Source of the DNA: Halobacteriales archaeon SW_10_66_29
GTDB lineage: Archaea; Halobacteriota; Halobacteria; Halobacteriales; Haloarculaceae
Reading direction: 5' to 3'
Assembly (NCBI GenBank): GCA_003022845.1
Contig: PXSF01000085.1
Location: forward strand, 1,345-38,289
Length of the DNA: 36,945 bases
Program-made: the position numbers and the translations under genes
Shown: in pieces, positions 5,431-25,320 of the stretch
How the letters are laid out: every line of letters starts with the position of its first letter
Position numbering within the stretch: position 1 is the first letter of the stretch
Notes under the pieces: generated by a model
The model's input: the letters and a program-made list of their open reading frames with translations, nothing else
The model's database searches: none
What the model was told of the DNA's origin: nothing

Positions 5431-7206
5431 TCAGTCCGCACTACCGGGGGAGTCGACGGTCGCGAACCGGTCGAGGTTCTCCACCTCGGGGACGCGCTCG
5501 TAGGGGCGATCGACGACGATGTCACCGGCCCGGCCGCTCCCGAGGCCCGGAATGGCGGTGAGTTCGTCCATCGAGGCGCTGTTGACGTCGAGCGGATAGG
5601 GGACGCCGGTCACCGAGCGGTAGCCGTGGTCGGTAACCGCCACGTCGATCACCTCGCCCAGCGGGCGCTCGCCGGGCACCGCGACCAGCAGGGGGTACGT
5701 CCCCAGCTGGCGGCCGAACGTCTTGCCGTCCTGGTGGTATTCGAGGTGGACGTCTTCGAGCACCGTCCCCGGCGGCGCGACCCGCTGGAGCATCGGGTTG
5801 TCGATCTCCTCGCGGACCTCCCGTTTGTACTGCTTGAAGAGTTTTTTGTGCTCGTGGGCAATTTCCGCGCCGGTGTCGGACATCTCGGTGCCTTCGAAGG
5901 ACATTACTTGGCGGATGTTGACCCGGCGGAGGATCAGGCCGGCATCGTAGACGCGCTGGAGAAACCGACGGTTGTGCTCGAAGGTCTCCTCGCGCTCGCC
6001 CTGCAGGCCGTGGACGAGGTTGATACCCGGCAGCAGCTTCGGGAGTCCCTGGCCCGCGTCGTCACCGTACTGCGGCGCGTCGTCGGGGTCCTCGCCGGAC
6101 TCGCGGCTCCCGGCGCTCGCTCCTTCGGAGGTCCTCGGGTCGCTCGGACCTCCCGGCCGCCAGCCGGCCGCCTCGTTGACGATCTTCACCGCCCGGAAAC
6201 ACTCCTCGGCGGTGACGTTGAGGTTGTTCCGCTCCTGGACAACTGGATCGGCCGATTCGAGGCCGAACGCGGCGGTGTCGCCGGGCGTGTTGTGCTCGGC
6301 GATGATCCGGATCCCCTCCCGGGACTTCTCCGGCCACTCGACGACCGTGATCGGGTTCATGTTGTCGAGGTGCAGCGTCTCCAGGTCCGGGACGGCCTCG
6401 CGGATGCCGCCGTAGAGTTGCCGGAGTGCGTCGGGGTTCGGTGCCTCGCCGTCACCGCCGTACGCGAGGATGTCGGCCTGTCGACCGAGGCGGAAGTCCG
6501 TGACGCCGTGGTCGGCGAGCGCCGACACTTCGCCGATCACGGAGTCCGGCGACCGGAAGCTCGGGTCCGCGCCGTACAGCGGCTCCGTGCAAAAGGAGCA
6601 GCGGTAGGGACAGCCCCGCGAGGTCTCCATCTCGGCGATGATGTACTCGGGATGGTTGGGGTGCTGTTCGACGACGAACGCCCCCTTCTGCGCCCAGCGC
6701 GTAATCTCGTCGTTGTCGCGCATCCGGTCACCAAACCCCTCCAGGCCGCCGTGGACGAGGTCGTAGGCCGCCGCCTCGACGTCGCCCTTCGCGACGAAGT
6801 CGTAGTCGAGGTCGTCGCGCTCGGTCTCCTGGGCGCCGGCGTTCTCCTCGCCGACGCCGAAGCGGACCGGTCCGCCCATCAGCGTCGTCCCGTCGGCGGT
6901 CCAGGCGAGGCGCTTCACCTCGTCCGGCTCGGCGGGGGTTCCGCCGACGTACTTGCCGGGAACCGTCATGCCACCCACGTAGACCATGAGGTCGGCGTCC
7001 TCGACGTCACGCCAGCGCCGCTGCTCCTCCCGGAGGGCGTCGATGGTGTGGTACGTGATCCGCGCCTCGGGCACCCCGGCGTCGACCAGCGCGCCGGCGA
7101 CGTAGCGCGGATACGTCGAGATGTACGGCGGCACGCCGAAGTGGGCGGGCTCGTCGACGTAGCCGTCGACGATGGTGACCGAGAGCTCCGCGGGGTCCGC
7201 AGTCAT
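5431..7206 (-). CDS. Radical SAM protein with B12-binding-like N-terminus and C-terminal HhH
   Basis: A 591-residue member of a conserved archaeal radical SAM family of unknown reaction. The N-terminal 190 residues look like a cobalamin-binding-type Rossmann region. The cluster motif is CPYRCSFC (Cys199, 203, 206: CxxxCxxC). The C-terminus has a helix-hairpin-helix segment (SASMDELTAIPGLGSGRAG) of the kind that contacts nucleic acid, so an RNA or DNA substrate is conceivable. Residues about 350-385 form a hydrophilic stretch that I would not expect in the family; its DNA holds an 8-bp inverted repeat. The gene converges on the lipoprotein gene with no gap between the stops. The start is supported by a TATA-like box 25-31 nt upstream. 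Confidence 0.88.
   Translation of the reverse strand: MTADPAELSVTIVDGYVDEPAHFGVPPYISTYPRYVAGALVDAGVPEARITYHTIDALREEQRRWRDVEDADLMVYVGGMTVPGKYVGGTPAEPDEVKRLAWTADGTTLMGGPVRFGVGEENAGAQETERDDLDYDFVAKGDVEAAAYDLVHGGLEGFGDRMRDNDEITRWAQKGAFVVEQHPNHPEYIIAEMETSRGCPYRCSFCTEPLYGADPSFRSPDSVIGEVSALADHGVTDFRLGRQADILAYGGDGEAPNPDALRQLYGGIREAVPDLETLHLDNMNPITVVEWPEKSREGIRIIAEHNTPGDTAAFGLESADPVVQERNNLNVTAEECFRAVKIVNEAAGWRPGGPSDPRTSEGASAGSRESGEDPDDAPQYGDDAGQGLPKLLPGINLVHGLQGEREETFEHNRRFLQRVYDAGLILRRVNIRQVMSFEGTEMSDTGAEIAHEHKKLFKQYKREVREEIDNPMLQRVAPPGTVLEDVHLEYHQDGKTFGRQLGTYPLLVAVPGERPLGEVIDVAVTDHGYRSVTGVPYPLDVNSASMDELTAIPGLGSGRAGDIVVDRPYERVPEVENLDRFATVDSPGSAD
6127..6153. repeat. Inverted repeat inside the radical SAM gene
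   Basis: GGAGGTCC, an 11-nt loop, GGACCTCC. It lies in the in-frame hydrophilic stretch at about residues 351-360 (DPRTSEGAS). Confidence 0.75.
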
Positions 7207-12298: not shown

Positions 12299-12370
12299 GC
12301 CTGGGTAGCTTAGCGGTAAAGCGCGTCCTTGGTAAGGACGAGAGCCCGGGTTCAAATCCCGGCCTAGGCT
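12299..12370 (+). tRNA. tRNA-Thr (anticodon GGT)
   Basis: A 72-nt cloverleaf without encoded CCA. The acceptor stem GCCTGGG pairs with CCTAGGC (one G-T pair) and the discriminator is T. The anticodon arm is CGTCC-TTGGTAA-GGACG, with GGT at 12331-12333. The T arm carries GGTTCAAATCC. No intron. CGAAACGTTCAAA at about 12269-12281 could serve as BRE/TATA, and a TTTT run at about 12382 could end transcription. The basic ORFs covering this region are translations of the tRNA and are not genes. Confidence 0.96.
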
Positions 12371-16279: not shown

Positions 16280-17350
16280 TCAAATCCGAGGTTCCTGTGA
16301 CTGCTGACCGCGAGCGGCGCTACATCCAGAAGCCTCGTCGTGAGCGCGTTTTCGCAGTTCCTCGTACAGCGCCACGAGGTCGTCGCCGACGGCGTCGAGC
16401 GTGAACTCCTCGGCTTTCTCCGCAGCGGCCGCGCCCAGGCGCTCGCGCTCCCCGGGGGAGTCACAGAGCCGCCGGAGCGGGGCCACGAACTGGTCGTCGC
16501 TTTTGAGACACTGCGCCCCGTCTTCCAGCCACTCGTAGGTGGGGATGTCGCGGATGACCGGCGGCTTGCCACAGGCCATCGCCTCCAGCAGCGCCATCCC
16601 CTCGTTCTCGTTTTTCGACGGCCAGAAGAACACGTCGCCGGCGGCGAACGCACCCCGGATGTCCTCCACGTAACCGGTGAACGTGCAGTTCTCGGGCGCC
16701 GCCCTGACGAGGCGGGTGGTCGCGCTGCTGCGGAGGAGGCGGTCGACCGTCCCGCCGCTGGGGTTGAGATAGCCGAACCAGACGAACTCGGTATCGGGCA
16801 TCCGCCGGGCGGTCTCGACGAACGTGCTCAGCCCCTTGCGCTCGATGACGTGGCCGACCATGAACACGACCGGCGGCTCCAGGTCGTAGCGGTCGAGGTA
16901 CTCCTCGCGGAGTCCAGCGTCGTCGAACCCCTCGATCTTGGCGGGGTCGAACCCGTTGCTGATGACGGTCTTGGGGACGTCGGCGTACGAGTCCAGCACC
17001 TCGCGATTGTGTTCGGAGGGGCAGACGATGTGGTCCGCCAGCGAGTACGCCCACGAGAGGTACGGTTCTGCGACGGTGGCGAGCGCGTCGAACCCACGGA
17101 AACTCTCCCTGAGGTCCGCAGCCGTCTGGTGGCCGTGGACCAGGACCGGCACGCCGGCCCCCCGTGCCCGTTTCGCGTAGTAAACCGACCGGGGACCCAT
17201 GTTGTTGAGATGCAGCAGATCGGCGTCGAGGATCGGGCTCGTCGTGTACTCGATGCCGGCCCGATCGAGGATCGTCCGCTGGTTCCGGACGGACTGGCGG
17301 TGCCCGCCCGTGATCTGTCGCTCCCACTCGAAGTAGTGGCTGACCAGCAT
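16280..17350 (-). CDS. Glycosyltransferase family 4 (GT-B)
   Basis: A 356-residue GT-B glycosyltransferase that probably moves a sugar from a nucleotide sugar to a lipid or glycan at the inner face of the membrane. The N-terminal half carries the acceptor-side Rossmann fold (LLHLNNMGP, VLVHGH). The C-terminal half has the family 4 elements: VISNGFD, VFMVGHVIERKG, CTFTGYV, and the E-x7-E region within NENEGMALLEAMACGKPPV. No membrane segments. The last 25 residues (ASGCSAARGQQSQ) look disordered. No other glycosylation gene is adjacent, so the product is unknown. TATA-like ATTTAAGT 26-33 nt upstream supports the start. Confidence 0.9.
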   Translation of the reverse strand: MLVSHYFEWERQITGGHRQSVRNQRTILDRAGIEYTTSPILDADLLHLNNMGPRSVYYAKRARGAGVPVLVHGHQTAADLRESFRGFDALATVAEPYLSWAYSLADHIVCPSEHNREVLDSYADVPKTVISNGFDPAKIEGFDDAGLREEYLDRYDLEPPVVFMVGHVIERKGLSTFVETARRMPDTEFVWFGYLNPSGGTVDRLLRSSATTRLVRAAPENCTFTGYVEDIRGAFAAGDVFFWPSKNENEGMALLEAMACGKPPVIRDIPTYEWLEDGAQCLKSDDQFVAPLRRLCDSPGERERLGAAAAEKAEEFTLDAVGDDLVALYEELRKRAHDEASGCSAARGQQSQEPRI

Positions 17351-17375
17351 CTACCCTTACTGCCGGCGAGCCCGT

Positions 17376-17383
17376 ACTTAAAT
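17376..17383 (-). promoter_or_regulatory. TATA box of the glycosyltransferase gene
   Basis: ATTTAAGT on the minus strand, 26-33 nt before the ATG at 17350. Confidence 0.5.
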
Positions 17384-17511
17384 CGTCGTCACTTGCTTCC
17401 GTCGTCCGGACCAGCCGGCTATTGCAACGAAGACTCGCTGATACAGTCGCTGGTGATCACGGCCGACAGTATGACCAGTAGATTGAACCTGCCGGGCAGT
17501 TAACGGGAACT

Positions 17512-18075
17512 ATGGACTCGACCTCCCGGGACGCAACGGTGCTGGTGGTCGACGACGAGGAGGCCGTTGCGGACGCCTACACCGCGCAGCTCGAGGGCGA
17601 GTACGAGACCCGCACGGCCTACAGCGGCAAGGAGGCACTGGAGACGGTCGACGACGGGGTGGACGTCGTCCTGCTGGACCGGCGGATGCCCGGCCGATCC
17701 GGGGACGAGGTGCTCGAACGGATCCACGAGCGGGGGCTGGACTGTCGGGTGGTCATGGTCACGGCAGTCGATCCGGACTTCGACATCGTCGACATGCCGT
17801 TCGAGGACTACCTCCAGAAGCCCGCGAGCCGGGAGGAGCTGTTTTCGGCCATCGAACAGCAGCTCGCAGCAACGGAGTACGACCAGCGCGTCACCGAGTA
17901 CATCGAGGTGACGACGAAACTCGGCCTGCTGGAACGGGAGAAATCCACGGTGGAACTGGAGTCGAACGACGACGTCGAGCGGCTCAGGGAGCGCAGCGAA
18001 CAGCTGCAGTCCGAACTCGACGAGGTCGTCGACCAGTTCGAGGACCCGGAAGACGCGTTCCGGGATCTGCTGTAG
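17512..18075 (+). CDS. Response regulator, receiver plus HalX domain
   Basis: A 187-residue haloarchaeal response regulator. The receiver domain (about 8-118) has the acidic pair at VVDDEE, the phosphoacceptor Asp56 (VVLLDRRMP), Thr84 (VMVTAVD) and Lys103 (YLQKPAS), so all key residues are intact. It is followed by a HalX domain (about 123-187), a helical segment found only in haloarchaeal regulators and thought to act in output. There is no DNA-binding domain and no histidine kinase gene nearby, so the partner kinase must be elsewhere. It precedes dnaG by 103 nt. Confidence 0.93.
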   Translation: MDSTSRDATVLVVDDEEAVADAYTAQLEGEYETRTAYSGKEALETVDDGVDVVLLDRRMPGRSGDEVLERIHERGLDCRVVMVTAVDPDFDIVDMPFEDYLQKPASREELFSAIEQQLAATEYDQRVTEYIEVTTKLGLLEREKSTVELESNDDVERLRERSEQLQSELDEVVDQFEDPEDAFRDLL

Positions 18076-18178
18076 GCCGGCCGTCCCGCCAGCTATTTCC
18101 GGACACCGCTTGTAGCATCGGCTGTCGTGAGTACACTCATGACGTCATCATCACCGCCCTTCACGGGGCAGTTCACCA

Positions 18179-19780
18179 ATGCTACATTCAGCGAAGTACC
18201 TCATTCACGCGGAGATCCGCACGAGCGGGGTGGTCGAGCGGAGTGACGTCGTCGGCGCCATTTTCGGGCAGACCGAGGGGCTGCTCGGCGACGAACTCGA
18301 TCTGCGCGACCTGCAGGAAGCCTCGAAGATCGGCCGGATAGACGTCGACATCGAGTCGGAGGACGGCCGCTCGTTCGGGACGATCACCATCGGGAGCGGC
18401 CTCGACCGGGTCCAGACGGCGGTCCTGGCTGCCGCCCTCGAAACGATCGAACGCGTCGGCCCGTGCCGTTCGGACTGCACAGTGACGGCGATCGAGGACG
18501 CACGCGCGGCGAAGCGTCGCGAACTCGTCGACAGGGCGACGGACCTGCTGACCGACCTCGAGGACTCGACGATGACCAGCGAGAACCTCGTCGAGGCGGT
18601 GCGCCAGCAGTCCCGCGTCGAGAACATCACCGAGTTCGAAGGCGTGCCCGCCGGCCCGCGGGTGGCCGACAGCGACGCCATCATCGTCGTCGAGGGCCGC
18701 GCGGACGTCCGCCGGCTGCTGCGCTTCGGCGTCAAAAACGCCGTCGCGGTCGAGGGGACGGACATCCCGGACGCGGTGGCACGATTCACCACGGAGCGCA
18801 CGACGACGGTGCTGCTCGACGGCGACCGGGGCGGCGACCTCATCCTCGAGGAACTCACCCAGGTCGGGAGCGTCGACTACGTCGCGTTCGCGCCCGCCGG
18901 CAAATGCGTGGAGGACCTGGACCGGTCGGCGATCATGTCCGCGCTCCGGAAGAAAGTGCCCTACGAGCAGGCGTTGGATGCAGACTCGCCGCGGGAGGCG
19001 TTCGCCCCGTCGAGCGATGCCGCCACCCGCCGGCAGGTCGAGGACGTCGTCGAGGGGGCTACCGATCCGACGCCGACGGGGTCCGGGCCGGTATCAGACC
19101 AGTCCGGGGTTGCCGGTGACAGCGAGCCGACTGACGACCTCGCGTCGGACGGCGAGGCGGCGTCCGGGCCCGGGGGAGTGGATCGCACTCACGCGGACGA
19201 TGGCGCTCCCGAGCCCGAACACCCTGTCGACCGCCCGGTCGACGAGCAGGAAGACGACTCCGCGGCCGGTGGGCCGCGGACCGCAGACGGTGGTGCCACA
19301 GCGGCCGACCCGACGACCGAGGAGCCGGCGAGTCCCGGAGAGCCCACGGCTGGGGACTCCGTGGACGCCGAGACGGACGGTGCGGCTCCGTCGGCGGCTA
19401 CCGGGACAGGTGAGACTCCCCCGGAGGCCGCGGAGCGAGGTGAGTCTTCGGAGTCCGACGGCGAGGCTGGCGGCCAGCCCACGACGTTGCAGGCTCACGT
19501 CGAGGCAGTCATCGGCGCGGGGAGCGGTCAGGCGAGGCTGCTCTCGGAGTCCTTCGAGGCGATCGAGGAGTGCGACGCCGAAGACGCCTTCGACGCGGTG
19601 GCGGACGCCGAGACGGTCCCGCACGTGCTCGTGATCGACGGGACTGTGACCCAGCGCCTCCTCGACGTGGCCGCCCAGCGCGGCGTCGGGCAGATCGTCG
19701 GCACCGAGGCAGGCGAGTTCGTCAAACAGCCGACCTCGGTCCGGGTGCTGACCGGCGAGGATCTCACGCTCCCGACGTAG
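18179..19780 (+). CDS. dnaG: Archaeal DnaG primase-like protein
   Basis: TOPRIM-containing DnaG homologue, 533 residues. In archaea this protein has RNA primer-synthesis activity in vitro and also associates with the exosome. The conserved N-terminus (TAKYLIHAEI-type, FGQTEGLLGDELDLRDLQ) leads to the TOPRIM fold with Glu172 (VVEGRADV) and the DGD motif at 214-216. Residues about 275-445 are a disordered linker rich in Asp, Glu, Pro, Gly and Thr, containing a 9-bp DNA palindrome. The conserved C-terminal domain (LQAHVEAVIGAGSGQARLL to the end) probably mediates binding to partners. The start ATG has no clear TATA box; a 10-bp palindrome ATGACGTCAT lies at 18139-18148. Confidence 0.95.
   Translation: MLHSAKYLIHAEIRTSGVVERSDVVGAIFGQTEGLLGDELDLRDLQEASKIGRIDVDIESEDGRSFGTITIGSGLDRVQTAVLAAALETIERVGPCRSDCTVTAIEDARAAKRRELVDRATDLLTDLEDSTMTSENLVEAVRQQSRVENITEFEGVPAGPRVADSDAIIVVEGRADVRRLLRFGVKNAVAVEGTDIPDAVARFTTERTTTVLLDGDRGGDLILEELTQVGSVDYVAFAPAGKCVEDLDRSAIMSALRKKVPYEQALDADSPREAFAPSSDAATRRQVEDVVEGATDPTPTGSGPVSDQSGVAGDSEPTDDLASDGEAASGPGGVDRTHADDGAPEPEHPVDRPVDEQEDDSAAGGPRTADGGATAADPTTEEPASPGEPTAGDSVDAETDGAAPSAATGTGETPPEAAERGESSESDGEAGGQPTTLQAHVEAVIGAGSGQARLLSESFEAIEECDAEDAFDAVADAETVPHVLVIDGTVTQRLLDVAAQRGVGQIVGTEAGEFVKQPTSVRVLTGEDLTLPT
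19259..19280. repeat. Perfect 9-bp inverted repeat in the dnaG linker
   Basis: TCCGCGGCC-GGTG-GGCCGCGGA, in frame within the disordered linker. A weaker 6-bp repeat (CCACGG/CCGTGG) follows near 19347-19367. Confidence 0.75.
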
Positions 19781-19816
19781 CTGTCAGCGAGTTCGAGGTG
19801 GCCGGCAGGCTCCTCC

Positions 19817-20257
19817 TCACCCGTCGTTCCCGGCGCCATCCAGCGGACGGCGCAGGATGACCCCGTCGCCGGCCTCGAAGTGATCCGCGACGTGCTCGAC
19901 CGGTTCGAAGCCGTGGCGCCCGTAGAACGCCCGGGCACGGTCGTCGACTACCCTGACGGTGACACGCAGTTCCTCGTGGTCGCCGAACTCCTCGACGATG
20001 GCATCGAGTAACAGGGAGCCGAGCCCTTCGCCCTGCCTGTCGGGGTGGATCGCCACCTCGGGCAGGTAGACGACCGAGTCGCCGTCGGCGATCGCGGCCG
20101 CGTACCCCACTGGTTCGCCGTCCTCGACGACGTACAGCGGTGGCGGCCCCTCCAGCGCCGTCTCCAGCAGCGCCGGCCAGGGCTCGGCGATCGCCGCCCG
20201 CTGGATCGCAAGCACCGCGCCACGGTCGGCCGGTGCTGCGGGGCGGACGTGGGGCAT
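19817..20257 (-). CDS. GNAT acetyltransferase, RimI-like
   Basis: A 146-residue GCN5-related N-acetyltransferase using acetyl-CoA; the acceptor is unknown. The N-terminal VRPAAPADRGAVLAIQRAA is motif C-like. The acetyl-CoA loop is PDRQGEGLGSLLL, close to the Q/RxxGxG/A consensus. The C-terminal ARAFYGRHGFEPVE is motif B. It starts 5 nt after the DUF92 gene ends, so the two are almost certainly one transcript. It converges on dnaG. Confidence 0.88.
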   Translation of the reverse strand: MPHVRPAAPADRGAVLAIQRAAIAEPWPALLETALEGPPPLYVVEDGEPVGYAAAIADGDSVVYLPEVAIHPDRQGEGLGSLLLDAIVEEFGDHEELRVTVRVVDDRARAFYGRHGFEPVEHVADHFEAGDGVILRRPLDGAGNDG

Positions 20258-20262
20258 GGGAG

Positions 20263-21618
20263 CTAGATCGAGAGGCCGACGGCAGTTGCGAGGGTGATAC
20301 CCATCACCGCCGCGGCAAGCGTCGCGAGGAAGTTCACGCCCTGGTTGCCGGTGACCCGTCCCTCGATCGTCGCGCCAAGCAGGCTGTCGACGGTCATGCC
20401 GACGGCGCTGGCCGCGACGACGCAGACAGCCCCCAGGGTGCCGACGGCATCGAACCCGACGAACGCGATGCCGGCGACCGTCAGCGCGCCCGCGAAGCCG
20501 GCGAGTTCCCCCTGCCAGGTGACGGCGCCGTCGGTCCCGGGATCGACCACCTCGAACGTCGTGATCAGCCGCGGGTTGTCGTAGAGGCCGCCGATCTCGC
20601 TGGACAGGGTGTCGGCCAGCGCGGCGCCGACGGCGCCCGCGAACGCGTAGAAGAACAGCGCTTCCGAGAGGCCGAGTCCGGAGACGAACTCGTGGGAGCT
20701 CGCGGCGGCGCCCAGCACCGCTACCAGCGCTACGAGGGAGTTCGCGAGGACGTTCCCGGTGCCGCGGGCACCCTCGTTCTCCTCGGCGATCCCCCGCTCG
20801 CGTTTGATCTCGTACCGGTACTTCGAGGAGAGGCCGCCGATGCCGAAGAAGGCGACGAGCATGAGAAACCAGCCGTAGTCGCCCAGGACAATAGTCAGCA
20901 GGCTCAGCAGGACGCCGGTCAGCATCCCCGCCAGCGAGGCGGTTTCCAGCGCGTAGGAGGCGTACCCGAGCAGCACGGTGACCGCCAGCGCGACGCCGAT
21001 GCGCGTCGCGGTGATCTCGACGGGGATGGCCGCAAACAGCCAGAGAACGAGGCCGACGCAGAGCATCACCAGCGCGTGGTCGCGCTCAAACAGCAGTTCC
21101 CGGAGCAGCGCGGCCAGCAGCCCGCCGCTCGCTGCGAGGAAGACGATCCTGGGCAGCGACACCGACGCCCCGGACAGTTCGACGGTAAACAGCTGTGCCG
21201 CGGTCGCTGCGATCACCCCACCGGCGACGAACCCCGCGGTAACGACGACGGTCCCCATCGAGACGGTCCTGGTGACCTGTCCCGCCAGGTTCCCCAGCGC
21301 GAGCAGGACGATGGTGCCGACGTAGACGTGGGCTGGCATTCCGAAGCCGACAGAGAGGATCGCCATCCCGGCGGCGGCCAGCGAGAAGCCGGCGAGGCTG
21401 TACAGCGTCCCGTCGCGCCGGTCGCCCGGCCGGGCGAACAGGTCGAACAGCGCGTGCTCCTCGTTGACGCTCAGCGCGAACACGGCGACGAGCAGAAACG
21501 GACCGATCGCCGCGACCGTCGCCAGCGCCGGCTCCTCGATCGAGACGACGAGCGGAGCCACCAGGGCTAACGACGCCACCGCAGCGAACGCTCCTGCCCG
21601 TCGGACAGCAGTTGTCAC
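20263..21618 (-). CDS. DUF92 family polytopic membrane protein
   Basis: A 451-residue integral membrane protein with about 12 hydrophobic segments. The C-terminal half has the DUF92/TMEM19 signatures GTGNVLANS, ADTLSSEIGGLY and GNQGVNFLAT. The plant member VTE6 is a phytyl-phosphate kinase, so an isoprenoid or polyprenol phosphate substrate is a reasonable guess. That suits the divergently transcribed UppS-like gene and archaeal lipid chemistry. The N-terminal half contains further spans and no soluble domain. The start is a GTG; a weak TAAGTAT sits 23-29 nt upstream. Downstream comes the GNAT gene. Confidence 0.85.
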   Translation of the reverse strand: MTTAVRRAGAFAAVASLALVAPLVVSIEEPALATVAAIGPFLLVAVFALSVNEEHALFDLFARPGDRRDGTLYSLAGFSLAAAGMAILSVGFGMPAHVYVGTIVLLALGNLAGQVTRTVSMGTVVVTAGFVAGGVIAATAAQLFTVELSGASVSLPRIVFLAASGGLLAALLRELLFERDHALVMLCVGLVLWLFAAIPVEITATRIGVALAVTVLLGYASYALETASLAGMLTGVLLSLLTIVLGDYGWFLMLVAFFGIGGLSSKYRYEIKRERGIAEENEGARGTGNVLANSLVALVAVLGAAASSHEFVSGLGLSEALFFYAFAGAVGAALADTLSSEIGGLYDNPRLITTFEVVDPGTDGAVTWQGELAGFAGALTVAGIAFVGFDAVGTLGAVCVVAASAVGMTVDSLLGATIEGRVTGNQGVNFLATLAAAVMGITLATAVGLSI

Positions 21619-21709
21619 TATCGGCGGTATTTCCCCACCGATACTTACAGTTTCCGAACACCGGCTGTGGCTGGGCCGCGGCTGTGGCGCTCTATCCGCA
21701 ACCAGAGTC

Positions 21710-21716
21710 GTTTAGG
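21710..21716 (+). promoter_or_regulatory. TATA-like box of the UppS-like gene
   Basis: GTTTAGG about 26 nt before the GTG at 21739. This supports that GTG over the earlier ATG at 21667 used by the ORF track. Confidence 0.45.
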
Positions 21717-21738
21717 GCCGTCGCCGGGAACGCCCGCT

Positions 21739-22305
21739 GTGGGCCTGTACGATCGGTACCTCGCTGCCCGGATCCGCCTCTCGGAGGCCGACCTCCCCGA
21801 AACGGTCGCCGTCGTGATCACGGAGCGTGACCTGCTGGAGTCGGGAGCGTACGGCACGCTGACCGACTTCCTCGGGTGGGCGTTCGGGTTCGGCGCCGAG
21901 CGCGTCGTCGTCTACGTCAGCGTGCTCGACGCGGAGGTAGTCCCGACGCTGCGGCGCGAACTGGAGTCGCTGGACTCCCCGCGGCCGGTCGCGGTGCGGT
22001 CGCCCGAGGACGAGGAGCGTGCGGACGCGCCAGTCCAGATCGGCATCGGCCTCGGCGGCAAACACGAGTTTGCGAACGCCGTCCAGGGGATCGCCGAGGA
22101 CGTCGCCGCGGGCGCGCTCGAACCGGAGATGATCACCGAGGAGGACGTCGAGCAGCGGCTGGTGTTCCCGACGGCGCCGGACCTGGTGATCAAGACCGGC
22201 GCCGAGCGCCTCTCGGATTTCATGATCTGGCAGTCCGTCTACTCCGAACTGCACTTCACCGACGTCAACTGGCGCAACTTCCGCCGCCGGGACTACCTGC
22301 GCGCG
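21739..22305 (+). pseudogene. UppS-like cis-prenyltransferase homologue, 3' end lost
   Basis: The protein matches cis-prenyltransferases (undecaprenyl/polyprenyl diphosphate synthases) best at its C-terminal part: DLVIKTGAERLSDFMIWQ, YSELHFTDVNWRNF, RRRDYLRA. The N-terminal catalytic motif with the DGNxR aspartate is not seen (VVITERDLLESG instead), so even the intact protein may be a non-catalytic paralogue comparable to eukaryotic NgBR. After RDYLRA the sequence stops resembling the family. The expected roughly 15 residues ending in an RxRRFG-like tail are missing, and the frame runs into SCCCRGRLG nonsense, ending at 22371. At that point the next gene's sequence begins in a different frame. 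The region looks like a deletion joint, real or from assembly. Confidence 0.75.
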
Positions 22306-23075
22306 TCGTGTTGCTGTCGGGGGAGGCTGGGGCCGGCGCCCGCGAGTTCGTCTACACGGCGGCGACGATGAACGGCCTCGCGAAGGACGGCCACGACCTG
22401 TTCGACCTCCACTACGGGGACCTCGCGCGGGACGCAGCGCTGCCCGAGGAGATCCACTACATCTCCTTTACGACCGACGAGGACAACCTGCGGCGGGAGA
22501 TCAAGATGACAATGGACGACGAGATCGTCGAGTCCGGGCTGTCGAACGTCCAGTTCAAGTCGCTCTCGCGGAACTACTTCCACATCAGCCCGGTGCCGCG
22601 CAACTGGTACGCCGAGGAGACGACCGACATCACGAGCCTGCGCAAGCGCCACGAGGATCGCGAGGGGCTGCTGACCGCGCTGGGCGACACGCTCAGCGAG
22701 CGGGCACCGGGGAACCTGGTCGTCGTCGACTCGCTGTCGGACCTCGCGGGCGCCGCCGGCGACACGATCCCCTGGGCGGACGTCAACTACCTCGTCAAGG
22801 GGATCGTGAAGGCCGCCCACAAGTGGGACGGGCTGATCCTGATCCCGGTCAACCACGAGACGCTGTCGGGAACGCAGCTCGGTCAGTTGATCGACAGCTG
22901 TAGCGGGACGCTCCGGTTCGAGTGGGAAACCGGCGGCAGCACCCGCGCCCGCACGCTCGTGGTCAAGAACTTCAGCGGCGTCCTCTCGACGATCGAATCG
23001 GAGAACATCGTGAAGTTCGAGACCGATCTCGGCGACGCCGGGTTCGACATCAGCGACGTGCGCAAGATCCGCTGA
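22302..23075 (+). pseudogene. KaiC/RAD55-like ATPase (HTR-like protein), 5' end lost
   Basis: From RVVLLSGEAGAGAREF onward this is a haloarchaeal RecA-fold protein of the KaiC/RAD55 type, known as HTR-like. It has a degenerate Walker A (SGEAGAGAREF, no GK), Walker B (NLVVVDSLSDL) and a family-like C-terminus (CSGTLRFEWETGG). About 25 N-terminal residues with a start codon should precede the first strand, but the DNA upstream is the UppS-like gene in another frame. The ORF at 21876-23075 is open only because the shifted frame lacks stops. A start inside the remnant (for example ATG at 22369) would remove the Walker A strand. HTR-like proteins were named from their occurrence near transducer genes; their function is open. 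Confidence 0.75.
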
Positions 23076-23106
23076 GCCCTATCGCAGACTGAAATAGACG
23101 GCAAAC

Positions 23107-23115
23107 GCTTAACTA
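23107..23115 (+). promoter_or_regulatory. TATA-like box of the 23138 gene
   Basis: GCTTAACTA, 23-31 nt before the ATG, suggesting that the 23138-24780 pair has its own leaderless promoter. Confidence 0.45.
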
Positions 23116-23137
23116 GCCAGTCACTCAAACACCGGTA

Positions 23138-24082
23138 ATGGCGAGTGAGTCGACCGAGGGGGGAACCGTGTCCGTCGATCTCCCGTCGGAGTTGCGCGAC
23201 TGGCTCGACGAACAGGCCGCCGAACTCGGCGTGGACCGCGACCAGCTCCTCGTTCAGGTAATTGGCGCGTACCGCACGACGGCCGAGTTCGACGACCACC
23301 TCGACGACGCGATCGACGAACAGGTCGCCGACGCGATCGACGAACAGGTCGCCGACGCGGTCCACGATACCCTCCCGGACGCGATCGACGACCACCTGGA
23401 CGACGCCCTCGCCGAACACCCGGACGACGGGACGATCGAGGAGCTCGCGTCGGCGGTCGAGGAGGAGCTCGCGTCGAACCTCGACGAGCAGATCGAGGCG
23501 ACGGTCCAGTCGATCCTCGCGGAGACGCTGGAGGACCAGCTCGCCTCGGGCGTCGAGGAGGAGTTCCAGGCCAAACTCGAAGACGTCCGCGAGCGGGTCA
23601 TCCAGGTCAAAAAGGAGACCGACGCGAAAGCCCCAGCGGACCACACGCACGAGGCGCTGGAGGGGGTCGCGGACCTCGAACAGCAGGTCGCGACCCTGGA
23701 GACGGAGCTGTCGGAGCTCCGGTCGGAGGTGGACGCGCTGGTGCCCGAACACGACGAGCAGATCGATGGGCTGGACGCCCGCCTGGGGGAGCTGGAAGAC
23801 CGGCTCCAGACCGTCGCGTGGGTCGTCAGCGACCTCCGGGAGGCCCACGAGTCCGGGAACGGCCTGGAGGCGGTCGAACGGATCAAACGCGCCGCCGCGA
23901 AGGCCGACATCGACCGCGCGAAATGCGAGAACTGCGGGAACGGGGTGACGCTGTCGCTGCTCACCGATCCGGCCTGTCCGCACTGCGACGCGACGGTGAC
24001 CAACGTCGAGGCCGACCCGGGGTGGTTCCGGAAACCGAAGCTCCGGGTCGCCTCCCAGCTCGAATCGGGTGAGCCCGAGTGA
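23138..24082 (+). CDS. RHH-like, coiled-coil and zinc-ribbon protein
   Basis: A 314-residue acidic protein of unknown function. The N-terminus (about 8-45, TVSVDLPSELRDWLDEQAAELGVD) resembles a ribbon-helix-helix or similar small DNA-binding fold. A helical region with octad-like repeats (DAIDEQVADAIDEQVADAVHD) follows, encoded by two exact 24-bp tandem copies. A long coiled coil (about 170-230, LEQQVATLETELSELRSEV) comes next. Residues about 262-285 hold a zinc ribbon (CENC ... CPHC). It might be a structural or chromatin-associated protein; this is inference. The stop overlaps the next gene's GTG by four bases, so the two are probably translationally coupled. Confidence 0.75.
   Translation: MASESTEGGTVSVDLPSELRDWLDEQAAELGVDRDQLLVQVIGAYRTTAEFDDHLDDAIDEQVADAIDEQVADAVHDTLPDAIDDHLDDALAEHPDDGTIEELASAVEEELASNLDEQIEATVQSILAETLEDQLASGVEEEFQAKLEDVRERVIQVKKETDAKAPADHTHEALEGVADLEQQVATLETELSELRSEVDALVPEHDEQIDGLDARLGELEDRLQTVAWVVSDLREAHESGNGLEAVERIKRAAAKADIDRAKCENCGNGVTLSLLTDPACPHCDATVTNVEADPGWFRKPKLRVASQLESGEPE
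23306..23353 (+). repeat. Two exact tandem copies of a 24-bp unit
   Basis: Unit GACGCGATCGACGAACAGGT+CGCC (24 bp) at 23306-23329 and 23330-23353, encoding DAIDEQVA twice. Diverged copies on both sides suggest growth by slippage. Confidence 0.85.
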
Positions 24083-24780
24083 GCGAGGACGACCCGTTCG
24101 AGGACCTGGACGAGGCCGTCGAGGACCGCGAGGGCGACCCGTTCGACAGCCTCGGGCATCCGGACGACGGGCCGGAGGGCGAGGAATCGGGCGATGACGA
24201 GGGCGATGACGAGGGCGATGACGAGACCGGTGGTGCAGCCGGGGAACGCGGCTCGAACGCCGGTGAAGCTGCCGGCGATGACGCGGAGTCCCGGTCACCG
24301 TGGGGTGAACCCCTGGAGCCGGACACCCCGGACGAGGTGAGGGAAAGCCGGTCGGGGAGCGCCTCGCGACCGGACGGCGAGGGTGAACAGCCCGCGATCG
24401 GAGAGGAGCCAGTAGTCGACGAGCACGCCGACGGCATCCGGGAGGAGCCGACAATCGACACCGGGCAGCACCGGGAGGGGGATCCCTTCGAGTCGATGGG
24501 CGACGCCTTCACCGAGATGGACATCGAGGGCGTCGACGCCGACGATGTCTGGCAGCGGCTCACCAGCGCCGAGGCCCGCGGTTCGGTCACCACGGAAGCG
24601 GAGCGCGCGTACGCCGAGGTGTCGAAACACAGCTACTGCGAGCAGTGCGAGTACTTCTCGGAGCCGCCGGAGATCGACTGCTCGCACGAGGGGACCGAGA
24701 TCGTCGAGTTTCTGGACGTGGACACCGTGCGCGTCGTCGACTGTCCCATCGTCGCCGAACGGAATGACCTCGAAGACTGA
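24079..24780 (+). CDS. Acidic disordered protein with C-terminal Cys/His motif
   Basis: A 233-residue protein that I do not recognise as a named family. The N-terminal two thirds are highly acidic and disordered, with repeats of DPFEDLDE/DPFDSLG/DPFESMGDAF character that look like short linear binding motifs. The C-terminus is folded and Cys-rich (YCEQCEYFSEPPEIDC then H and VVDC), a probable zinc site. It starts with GTG overlapping the TGA of the upstream gene (GTGA), indicating co-expression with the coiled-coil protein. A 12-bp DNA repeat (GATGACGAGGGC, about 2.75 copies at 24193-24225) encodes DDEG repeats. Its stop codon lies exactly at the edge of an IS200/IS605-like end, so its C-terminus may have been altered. 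Confidence 0.75.
   Translation: MSEDDPFEDLDEAVEDREGDPFDSLGHPDDGPEGEESGDDEGDDEGDDETGGAAGERGSNAGEAAGDDAESRSPWGEPLEPDTPDEVRESRSGSASRPDGEGEQPAIGEEPVVDEHADGIREEPTIDTGQHREGDPFESMGDAFTEMDIEGVDADDVWQRLTSAEARGSVTTEAERAYAEVSKHSYCEQCEYFSEPPEIDCSHEGTEIVEFLDVDTVRVVDCPIVAERNDLED
24193..24225 (+). repeat. 12-bp tandem repeat, about 2.75 copies
   Basis: GATGACGAGGGC in tandem, encoding DDEG units in the acidic disordered region. Confidence 0.8.
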
Positions 24781-25320
24781 CATCCTCCCAGGACTGAAGT
24801 CGTGGGGTTCCCCGCGCTCGGGGTCGGGCCGGCCATCGCACCCGGCAAAACGGTACGTGGGTCCGCCCCAGCCGACGGGGGCAAGCTTCCGCCGCGTGGG
24901 CGTACTCCGGTTCGTGCTCGGTACTTCGGCCCTTCGCAGGGTGTGGCGTGTTGCGTGCCCCGACAGGGACACGGTATCCGCTCGCACAGCGCCCGATACC
25001 GCATCGGGCGACCGTCCACGGTTTGAGCGTGGATGGACACGGGCCGTGCCATCGGCCTGCCTGTTCTTTCTGCCACGGTGAACAGGCTCGCACGCCGACG
25101 GGGTTGGATTAGTCGTGCCGTCACCCCATCCCGTGTTGCAGGGGCAGGGGTACTGTGAGCGCCGGATGGCGCGTGTCGGCGGGAAGGACCCCACTGTTTC
25201 CGGATTGGTTTCAGCGATTGAGTTACCCAACGTTCGACCCCGAACGGCCTAAATCCTGCGGTTGCGCCACCAAGCGCACGCGATTCACCCCACCACTGAA
25301 GGGGGTGGGCTCTCTCGCTG
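24779..25320 (-). mobile_element. IS200/IS605-like remnant or non-autonomous derivative, no intact ORF
   Basis: The left edge reads GACATCCTCCCAGGACTGAA followed by GTCGTGGGGTTC (hairpin 24787-24806, one mismatch). The right edge has CCCACC-ACTGAAGGG-GGTGGG (25289-25309). Both match the terminal hairpins, with a TTCAG loop on the minus strand, that end IS200/IS605/IS1341-type elements in haloarchaea, and both face the same way. The roughly 480 bp between show no TnpA or TnpB motifs in any frame but have several strong hairpins: GCCTGTTC/GAACAGGC, GCCCGAT/ATCGGGC and CCACG/CGTGG. It may be a decayed element, a MITE of this family or a structured RNA such as an orphan omega-RNA. The internal ORFs on both strands are not convincing. 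Confidence 0.55.

Follow-up and report, generated by a model that had tools for sequence, protein, structure and literature searches.

The window analysed here, a stretch of 36,945 nucleotides from the genome of Halobacteriales archaeon SW_10_66_29 (contig PXSF01000085.1), contains side by side a gene of the UppS family and a gene for a RecA-fold ATPase-like protein of the KaiC/RAD55 (HTR-like) type. The former codes for a divergent paralogue of the cis-prenyltransferases, and both genes are cut where they meet (Table 1). The upstream neighbour of the UppS-like gene, transcribed divergently, encodes a DUF92 membrane protein. DUF92 includes the plant phytyl-phosphate kinases of the VTE6 type, and a role of the neighbour in isoprenoid phosphate metabolism is possible. 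The sister metagenome-assembled genome (MAG) G017 is collinear with the window in the DUF92/UppS-like region. Its alignment to the window on the other side runs on from the ATPase-like gene into a gene for a coiled-coil protein (G017:C84). A scaffold gap of 80 N (G000:C85 1265-1344) directly precedes position 1 of the window, whose left edge is itself a scaffold join.

Table 1. Features of the window, in window positions, and of the losses found on other contigs of the same genome, in contig positions.
Feature	Position	Strand	Basis
tRNA gene	12299-12370	+	Sole Rfam match in the window at the gathering threshold
DUF92 membrane protein gene, divergent upstream neighbour of the UppS-like gene	20263-21618	-	PF01940, 184.7 bits
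UppS-like gene, divergent cis-prenyltransferase paralogue	21739-22305	+	PF01255, 66.8 bits; 97% identical to the intact L004 copy
Out-of-frame breakpoint	22303-22304		Shared 2-bp GC; alignment to L004/G040:C18
KaiC/RAD55 (HTR-like) RecA-fold ATPase-like gene, no start codon	22305-23075	+	Alignment with 8 intact homologues
Out-of-frame tail of the UppS-like frame	22306-22371	+	ORF list, translation; no homology; TGA at 22369-22371
GTG in the ATPase frame, closest candidate for a replacement start beyond the join	22308-22310	+	Putative, from sequence
Coiled-coil protein gene, downstream of the ATPase-like gene	23138-24082	+	ORF list; collinear match in G017:C84
Losses of 64, 187, 152, 112 and 104 bp	G000:C22 5172-5564 (L162/L221; PriL, join near 5564); C2 ~5841 (thermosome subunit); C11 ~13445, ~14576; C24 ~913		

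A preliminary description of the window had reported an out-of-frame junction between the two genes, with the UppS-family sequence running cleanly to RDYLRA and the homology to the ATPase starting in a different frame. Both observations hold: the UppS-like coding sequence extends from a GTG at 21739 to RDYLRA at 22305, and the first residues with ATPase homology are VVLLSGEAGAGAREF, read in the frame of 22305. An intact version of the locus, with both genes in identical order, is found in the MAG QS_4_62_28 (contig PXRO01000018; locus L004 on G040:C18). At DNA level, the window is 98% identical to it in the UppS-like gene and 95% identical in the ATPase-like gene. We use L004 as a near-identical second locus only, and not as evidence on the species it is named for, because just ~9 kb of contig C18 resembles this genome; for the same reason G040 with all its contigs was rejected as a background comparison. 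The alignment to L004 shows that exactly 184 bp (L004 2817-3000) are absent from the window. They comprise the last 13 residues of the UppS-like protein (LRDYQERQRRYGQ in L004) and its stop codon, a spacer of 72 bp, and the start codon and 22 further residues of the ATPase-like protein, which reads MERIPFGISRLDTTIGGGAPRGS at its start in L004. A single loss thus harms both genes, as had been suggested, and takes 13 C-terminal and 23 N-terminal residues where about 15 and about 25 had been estimated.

What remains of the UppS-like gene is 189 codons, and the missing residues include the C-terminal RXG motif. Beyond the join, its frame reads the non-homologous SCCCRGRLGPAPASSSTRRRR up to the stop codon. 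The C-terminal pattern of these proteins is RDYLRA..R.RR[F/Y]G, and the window copy alone lacks it; all 32 other UppS-like homologues that were recovered finish with R[F/Y]G and a single further residue. The ATPase-like gene has lost its first 23 residues, including the start, and runs to a TGA at 23073-23075. This N-terminus is kept in all eight other homologues. Because no relative combines a UppS-like protein ending at LRA with an overlapping start of the ATPase-like gene (0/32 UppS-like and 0/8 ATPase homologues), the junction reflects a loss and not a lineage-specific gene arrangement. The remaining parts of both genes have intact frames, evolve under purifying selection relative to L004, and carry no other damage (dS 0.049, dN 0.012, and dN/dS ~0.25, from few changes, for the UppS-like part; dS 0.164, dN 0.017, and dN/dS ~0.10 for the ATPase-like part). 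Given these intact frames and low ratios, no decay followed the event.

The preliminary description had attributed the loss to a deletion between short homologies of the GCGCG type. The bases shared at the breakpoint amount to two (GC). Because at least two bases match at 20% of random joins within the window (P 0.20), this overlap is at chance level and a homology-driven loss is not indicated. The 184 bp have no second copy in this genome, searches of which returned only chance matches of 17-18 bp, and no relative was found among viral contigs. A chimera of two strains meeting at the join was also considered. Identity to L004 is 97.6% on the left of the join and 92.9% on the right; the change makes no clean step, the first ~200 bp on the right being 99% identical, and this candidate was rejected.

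As to the product of the second gene, the Pfam KaiC model matches the intact L004 copy through N-terminal residues 5-40 only, and the ArlH model weakly matches the C-terminal half of the intact homologue. These two matches relate the protein to the RecA-fold proteins KaiC, RAD55, and ArlH. Unlike them, it lacks the Walker A lysine and stays below every curated cut-off. The window copy matched no Pfam family, and the residues lost at the join include the part by which Pfam recognises the protein. The Walker A motif GxxGxGK[ST] is absent from all nine sequences (the window and L004-L011), where the phosphate-binding loop reads GEAGAGAREF or, in one of the nine, GEAGAGAEEF. Because the lysine is absent from all of them, the product is probably not a conventional ATPase.

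One reading of the junction takes it as functional, i.e., as a fusion or as a frameshifted or translationally coupled pair in which recoding or restart yields working products; the preliminary description had also raised a fusion produced by a frameshift. Both reading frames do stay open, and the TGA of the UppS-like frame overlaps an ATG of the ATPase frame at 22368 (ATGA), which follows two other possible starts in that frame, the GTG listed in Table 1 and a TTG at 22311. Yet this ATG codes for a Met inside the ATPase-like protein that is partly conserved (TMNGL/VMNGL), and the overlap is therefore a by-product of the join. The arrangement is found in no relative. The two genes are not even neighbours in the other relatives examined, and G017, the closest of these, has them on two separate contigs. 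A fused product would also be devoid of the RXG motif and of the beginning of the ATPase core. The frameshift-made fusion is left without support, and working products from this junction, by whichever route, are scarcely credible.

Losses of the same kind recur in this genome. We compared 476 kb of it with 543 kb of the sister MAG G017, which gave 66 kb of alignment at 91.1% mean identity. A fixed rule counted clean losses from 20 bp upwards, provided that they fell within an open frame of 300 nt or more that carried a coding GC3 signature. This revealed six distinct out-of-frame coding losses of 47-187 bp, one of them in G017 (47 bp) and five in this genome (187, 152, 112, 64, and 104 bp, none a multiple of 3), i.e., a density in this genome of ~1 loss per 13 kb aligned. 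The intact counterparts in G017 encode a thermosome subunit, an ArsA/Get3-type ATPase, a ZigA/CobW-type GTPase, the primase large subunit PriL, and a GST-like protein (a name given from reading the sequence, which has no NCBIfam match). The sole match to PF04104 (PriL) in the genome stops exactly at one of these joins, and the C-terminus bearing the Fe-S cysteines continues in another frame beyond it. PriL is essential in archaea. Hence, a consensus sequence in which it is broken corresponds to no living genome. On average, 0.83 bases are shared at a join where chance alone would give 0.82, a result that is unfavourable to microhomology-mediated end joining.

Three pairs of finished Haloferax plasmids served as controls: gibbonsii versus lucentense (63 kb, 91.4% identity), gibbonsii versus alexandrinus (65 kb, 91.3%), and lucentense versus alexandrinus (79 kb, 98.6%). 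The same rule found no out-of-frame coding loss in any of the three comparisons. The clean indels were all multiples of 3, save one non-coding case of 20 bp. The contrast of six losses with none gives a binomial p of 0.001 when two control comparisons are pooled and of 0.018 against one control pair, values that are indicative rather than exact because the three control replicons are related to one another. The controls are also plasmids, from a different genus, and the sample is small.

These data bear on whether the loss is a real and recent deletion in the strain, by microhomology-mediated end joining or slippage, that inactivated both genes at once. The join is clean and single, and a de Bruijn assembler alone makes no joins on 2 bp. 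Halite endoliths, moreover, are exposed to DNA-damaging conditions. A microhomology-mediated end-joining pathway is known in Haloferax, and end joining that leaves deletions has been described in Haloferax volcanii (reviewed in PMC7776575). The focal loss resembles the latter in being a deletion with a 2-bp overlap, but differs from it in that the overlap does not exceed chance, and in that the density and the targets of the losses are incompatible with viability. Like events break the single-copy PriL, the thermosome, and others, and no living lineage could bear them at such a density. The conservation of the UppS-like C-terminus in all other sequences also counts against a real deletion. We consider it unlikely that the deletion took place in the organism, and very unlikely that it is both real and fixed in the strain, with one event having removed the NgBR-like RXG tail (see below) together with the start of a degenerate KaiC-like protein.

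The preliminary description had allowed for an origin either in the organism or in the assembly. We strongly favour the assembly because the losses recur across the genome, are always out of frame among its coding hits, break a single-copy essential gene, and are absent from the finished controls. Very probably, then, the junction is an assembly product and the organism carries both genes intact. Neighbouring contigs, or the two sides of a short coverage gap, would have been joined without the 184 bp between them, and the deposited sequence would consequently show two genes truncated out of frame. Since de Bruijn assembly alone does not account for a join on 2 bp, a scaffolding or gap-closing step must be assumed; the most likely one would be paired-end scaffolding in which the gap was underestimated and closed without Ns. 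Where gaps in these assemblies are filled with Ns, most of them are shorter than the corresponding distance in relatives: 25 N stand for 305 or 626 bp, 50 N for 225 bp, 53 N for 145 bp, and 24 N for 105-141 bp (in the better-covered alignments). Some overstate the distance (236 N for 166 bp and 56 N for 30 bp), all these distances varying with the alignment used. The predominance of understated gaps fits a scaffolder whose gap estimate can reach zero. The losses are also similar to the scaffold misjoins or local assembly deletions of short-read MAGs with scaffolds of the IDBA_UD type: they are clean and out of frame, remove tens to hundreds of bp, affect many contigs, and show no sequence preference at the join.

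A study of Atacama salt crusts at the sites Sw, Qh, and Qs produced IDBA_UD scaffolds from 100-base reads of a 600-1000 bp library (PMC5532433). The names of the relatives' MAGs (SW, QH, and QS) match these sites, and we infer that the genome of the window went through the same pipeline. If it does come from that study, its library underwent 13 cycles of PCR, which is relevant to a further reading, in which a minority or chimeric molecule (a population variant or a PCR/library chimera) was taken as the consensus. Such a molecule, being present in the reads, would explain a join with a 2-bp overlap, and near-relatives do differ from stretch to stretch, with identities from 80% to 100% across the 9 kb they share. 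It would, however, have to prevail in the consensus at numerous sites of the genome, and we regard this reading as highly improbable. The misjoin during assembly remains our preferred explanation of the junction.

Contig C18 of G040, on which L004 lies, has peculiarities of its own. The first ~9 kb of this 44-kb contig (PXRO01000018; L037-L039) are near-identical to positions 16355-25302 of the window, and the rest is not; G+C is 0.67 in the shared part and 0.625 in the remainder. The similarity stops at a repeat of ~120 bp (window ~25200-25320), which has several copies in G040. C18 looks as if it were itself chimeric or contained transferred DNA. One of its genes, for a glycosyltransferase, is short of 50 bp, out of frame, that the window has (16570-16618), and C18 further lacks 428 bp that make up most of a GNAT acetyltransferase gene present in the window (~19806-20223). 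These are losses of the same kind in another assembly.

The intact relatives of the UppS-like gene provide information on what the protein may do. Its PF01255 match covers the C-terminal half only, and in place of the catalytic DGNRR of the canonical enzyme, the paralogue has a sequence of the ITERDLL type. The motif [QM]DGNRR is present in 30 of 30 canonical UppS copies, and its catalytic Asp is lost in the paralogue. Conversely, the C-terminal RXG found throughout the 32 homologues of the paralogue is absent from the canonical copies. The fold is that of a cis-prenyltransferase according to an AlphaFold model (pLDDT 85), for which the top PDB matches are cis-prenyltransferases, including DHDDS. 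PDB chains of NUS1/NgBR align to profile positions 16-202, almost its full length, whereas those of bacterial UppS align to the C-terminal half only. The similarity to NgBR in sequence is weak (E 2e-5). Judged from these traits, the protein is a cis-prenyltransferase paralogue of haloarchaea and resembles NgBR/Nus1, the subunit without catalytic function.

Both kinds of UppS occur in 37 of the 40 haloarchaeal genomes searched, and in 23 of the 40 (e.g., L073, L072, and L074) the canonical and the UppS-like genes are convergent, tail to tail, and at most 3 kb apart. In human DHDDS/NgBR (6W2L, 6Z1N), the non-catalytic partner contributes the RXG by which the active site is completed (PMC7573591). 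The haloarchaeal pair is alike in that the paralogue has the fold and the C-terminal RXG without DGNRR, and its canonical, partner-like counterpart keeps DGNRR without the RXG. It differs from NgBR/Nus1 in the size of the paralogue, which has ~202 residues and no N-terminal extension ahead of the domain; the window copy differs further by having lost the RXG through the join. A heteromeric archaeal cis-prenyltransferase has been reported in Methanosarcina mazei (MM_0618/MM_1083, as cited in PMC8131916), and our search of the open literature found no paper describing the haloarchaeal pair as a heteromeric enzyme. By analogy with DHDDS/NgBR, the neighbouring canonical UppS and UppS-like proteins are a candidate heteromeric cis-prenyltransferase.

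If the join were real, it would have deprived the window protein of exactly the RXG motif, and the locus would offer a natural test of whether an archaeal heteromeric cis-prenyltransferase can dispense with its RXG-bearing subunit; a real and fixed deletion would mean that the glycosyl-carrier lipid of a halite archaeon is made without the normal arrangement of subunits. Under the assembly origin that we favour, this genome bin bears many short out-of-frame losses, as its sister bins probably do, and apparent pseudogenes, fusions, and truncated proteins in such bins should not be taken as biology before reads are mapped. A by-product of the analysis is the conserved pair of haloarchaeal genes resembling DHDDS/NgBR, which is widespread and whose candidate role as a heteromeric enzyme is directly testable.
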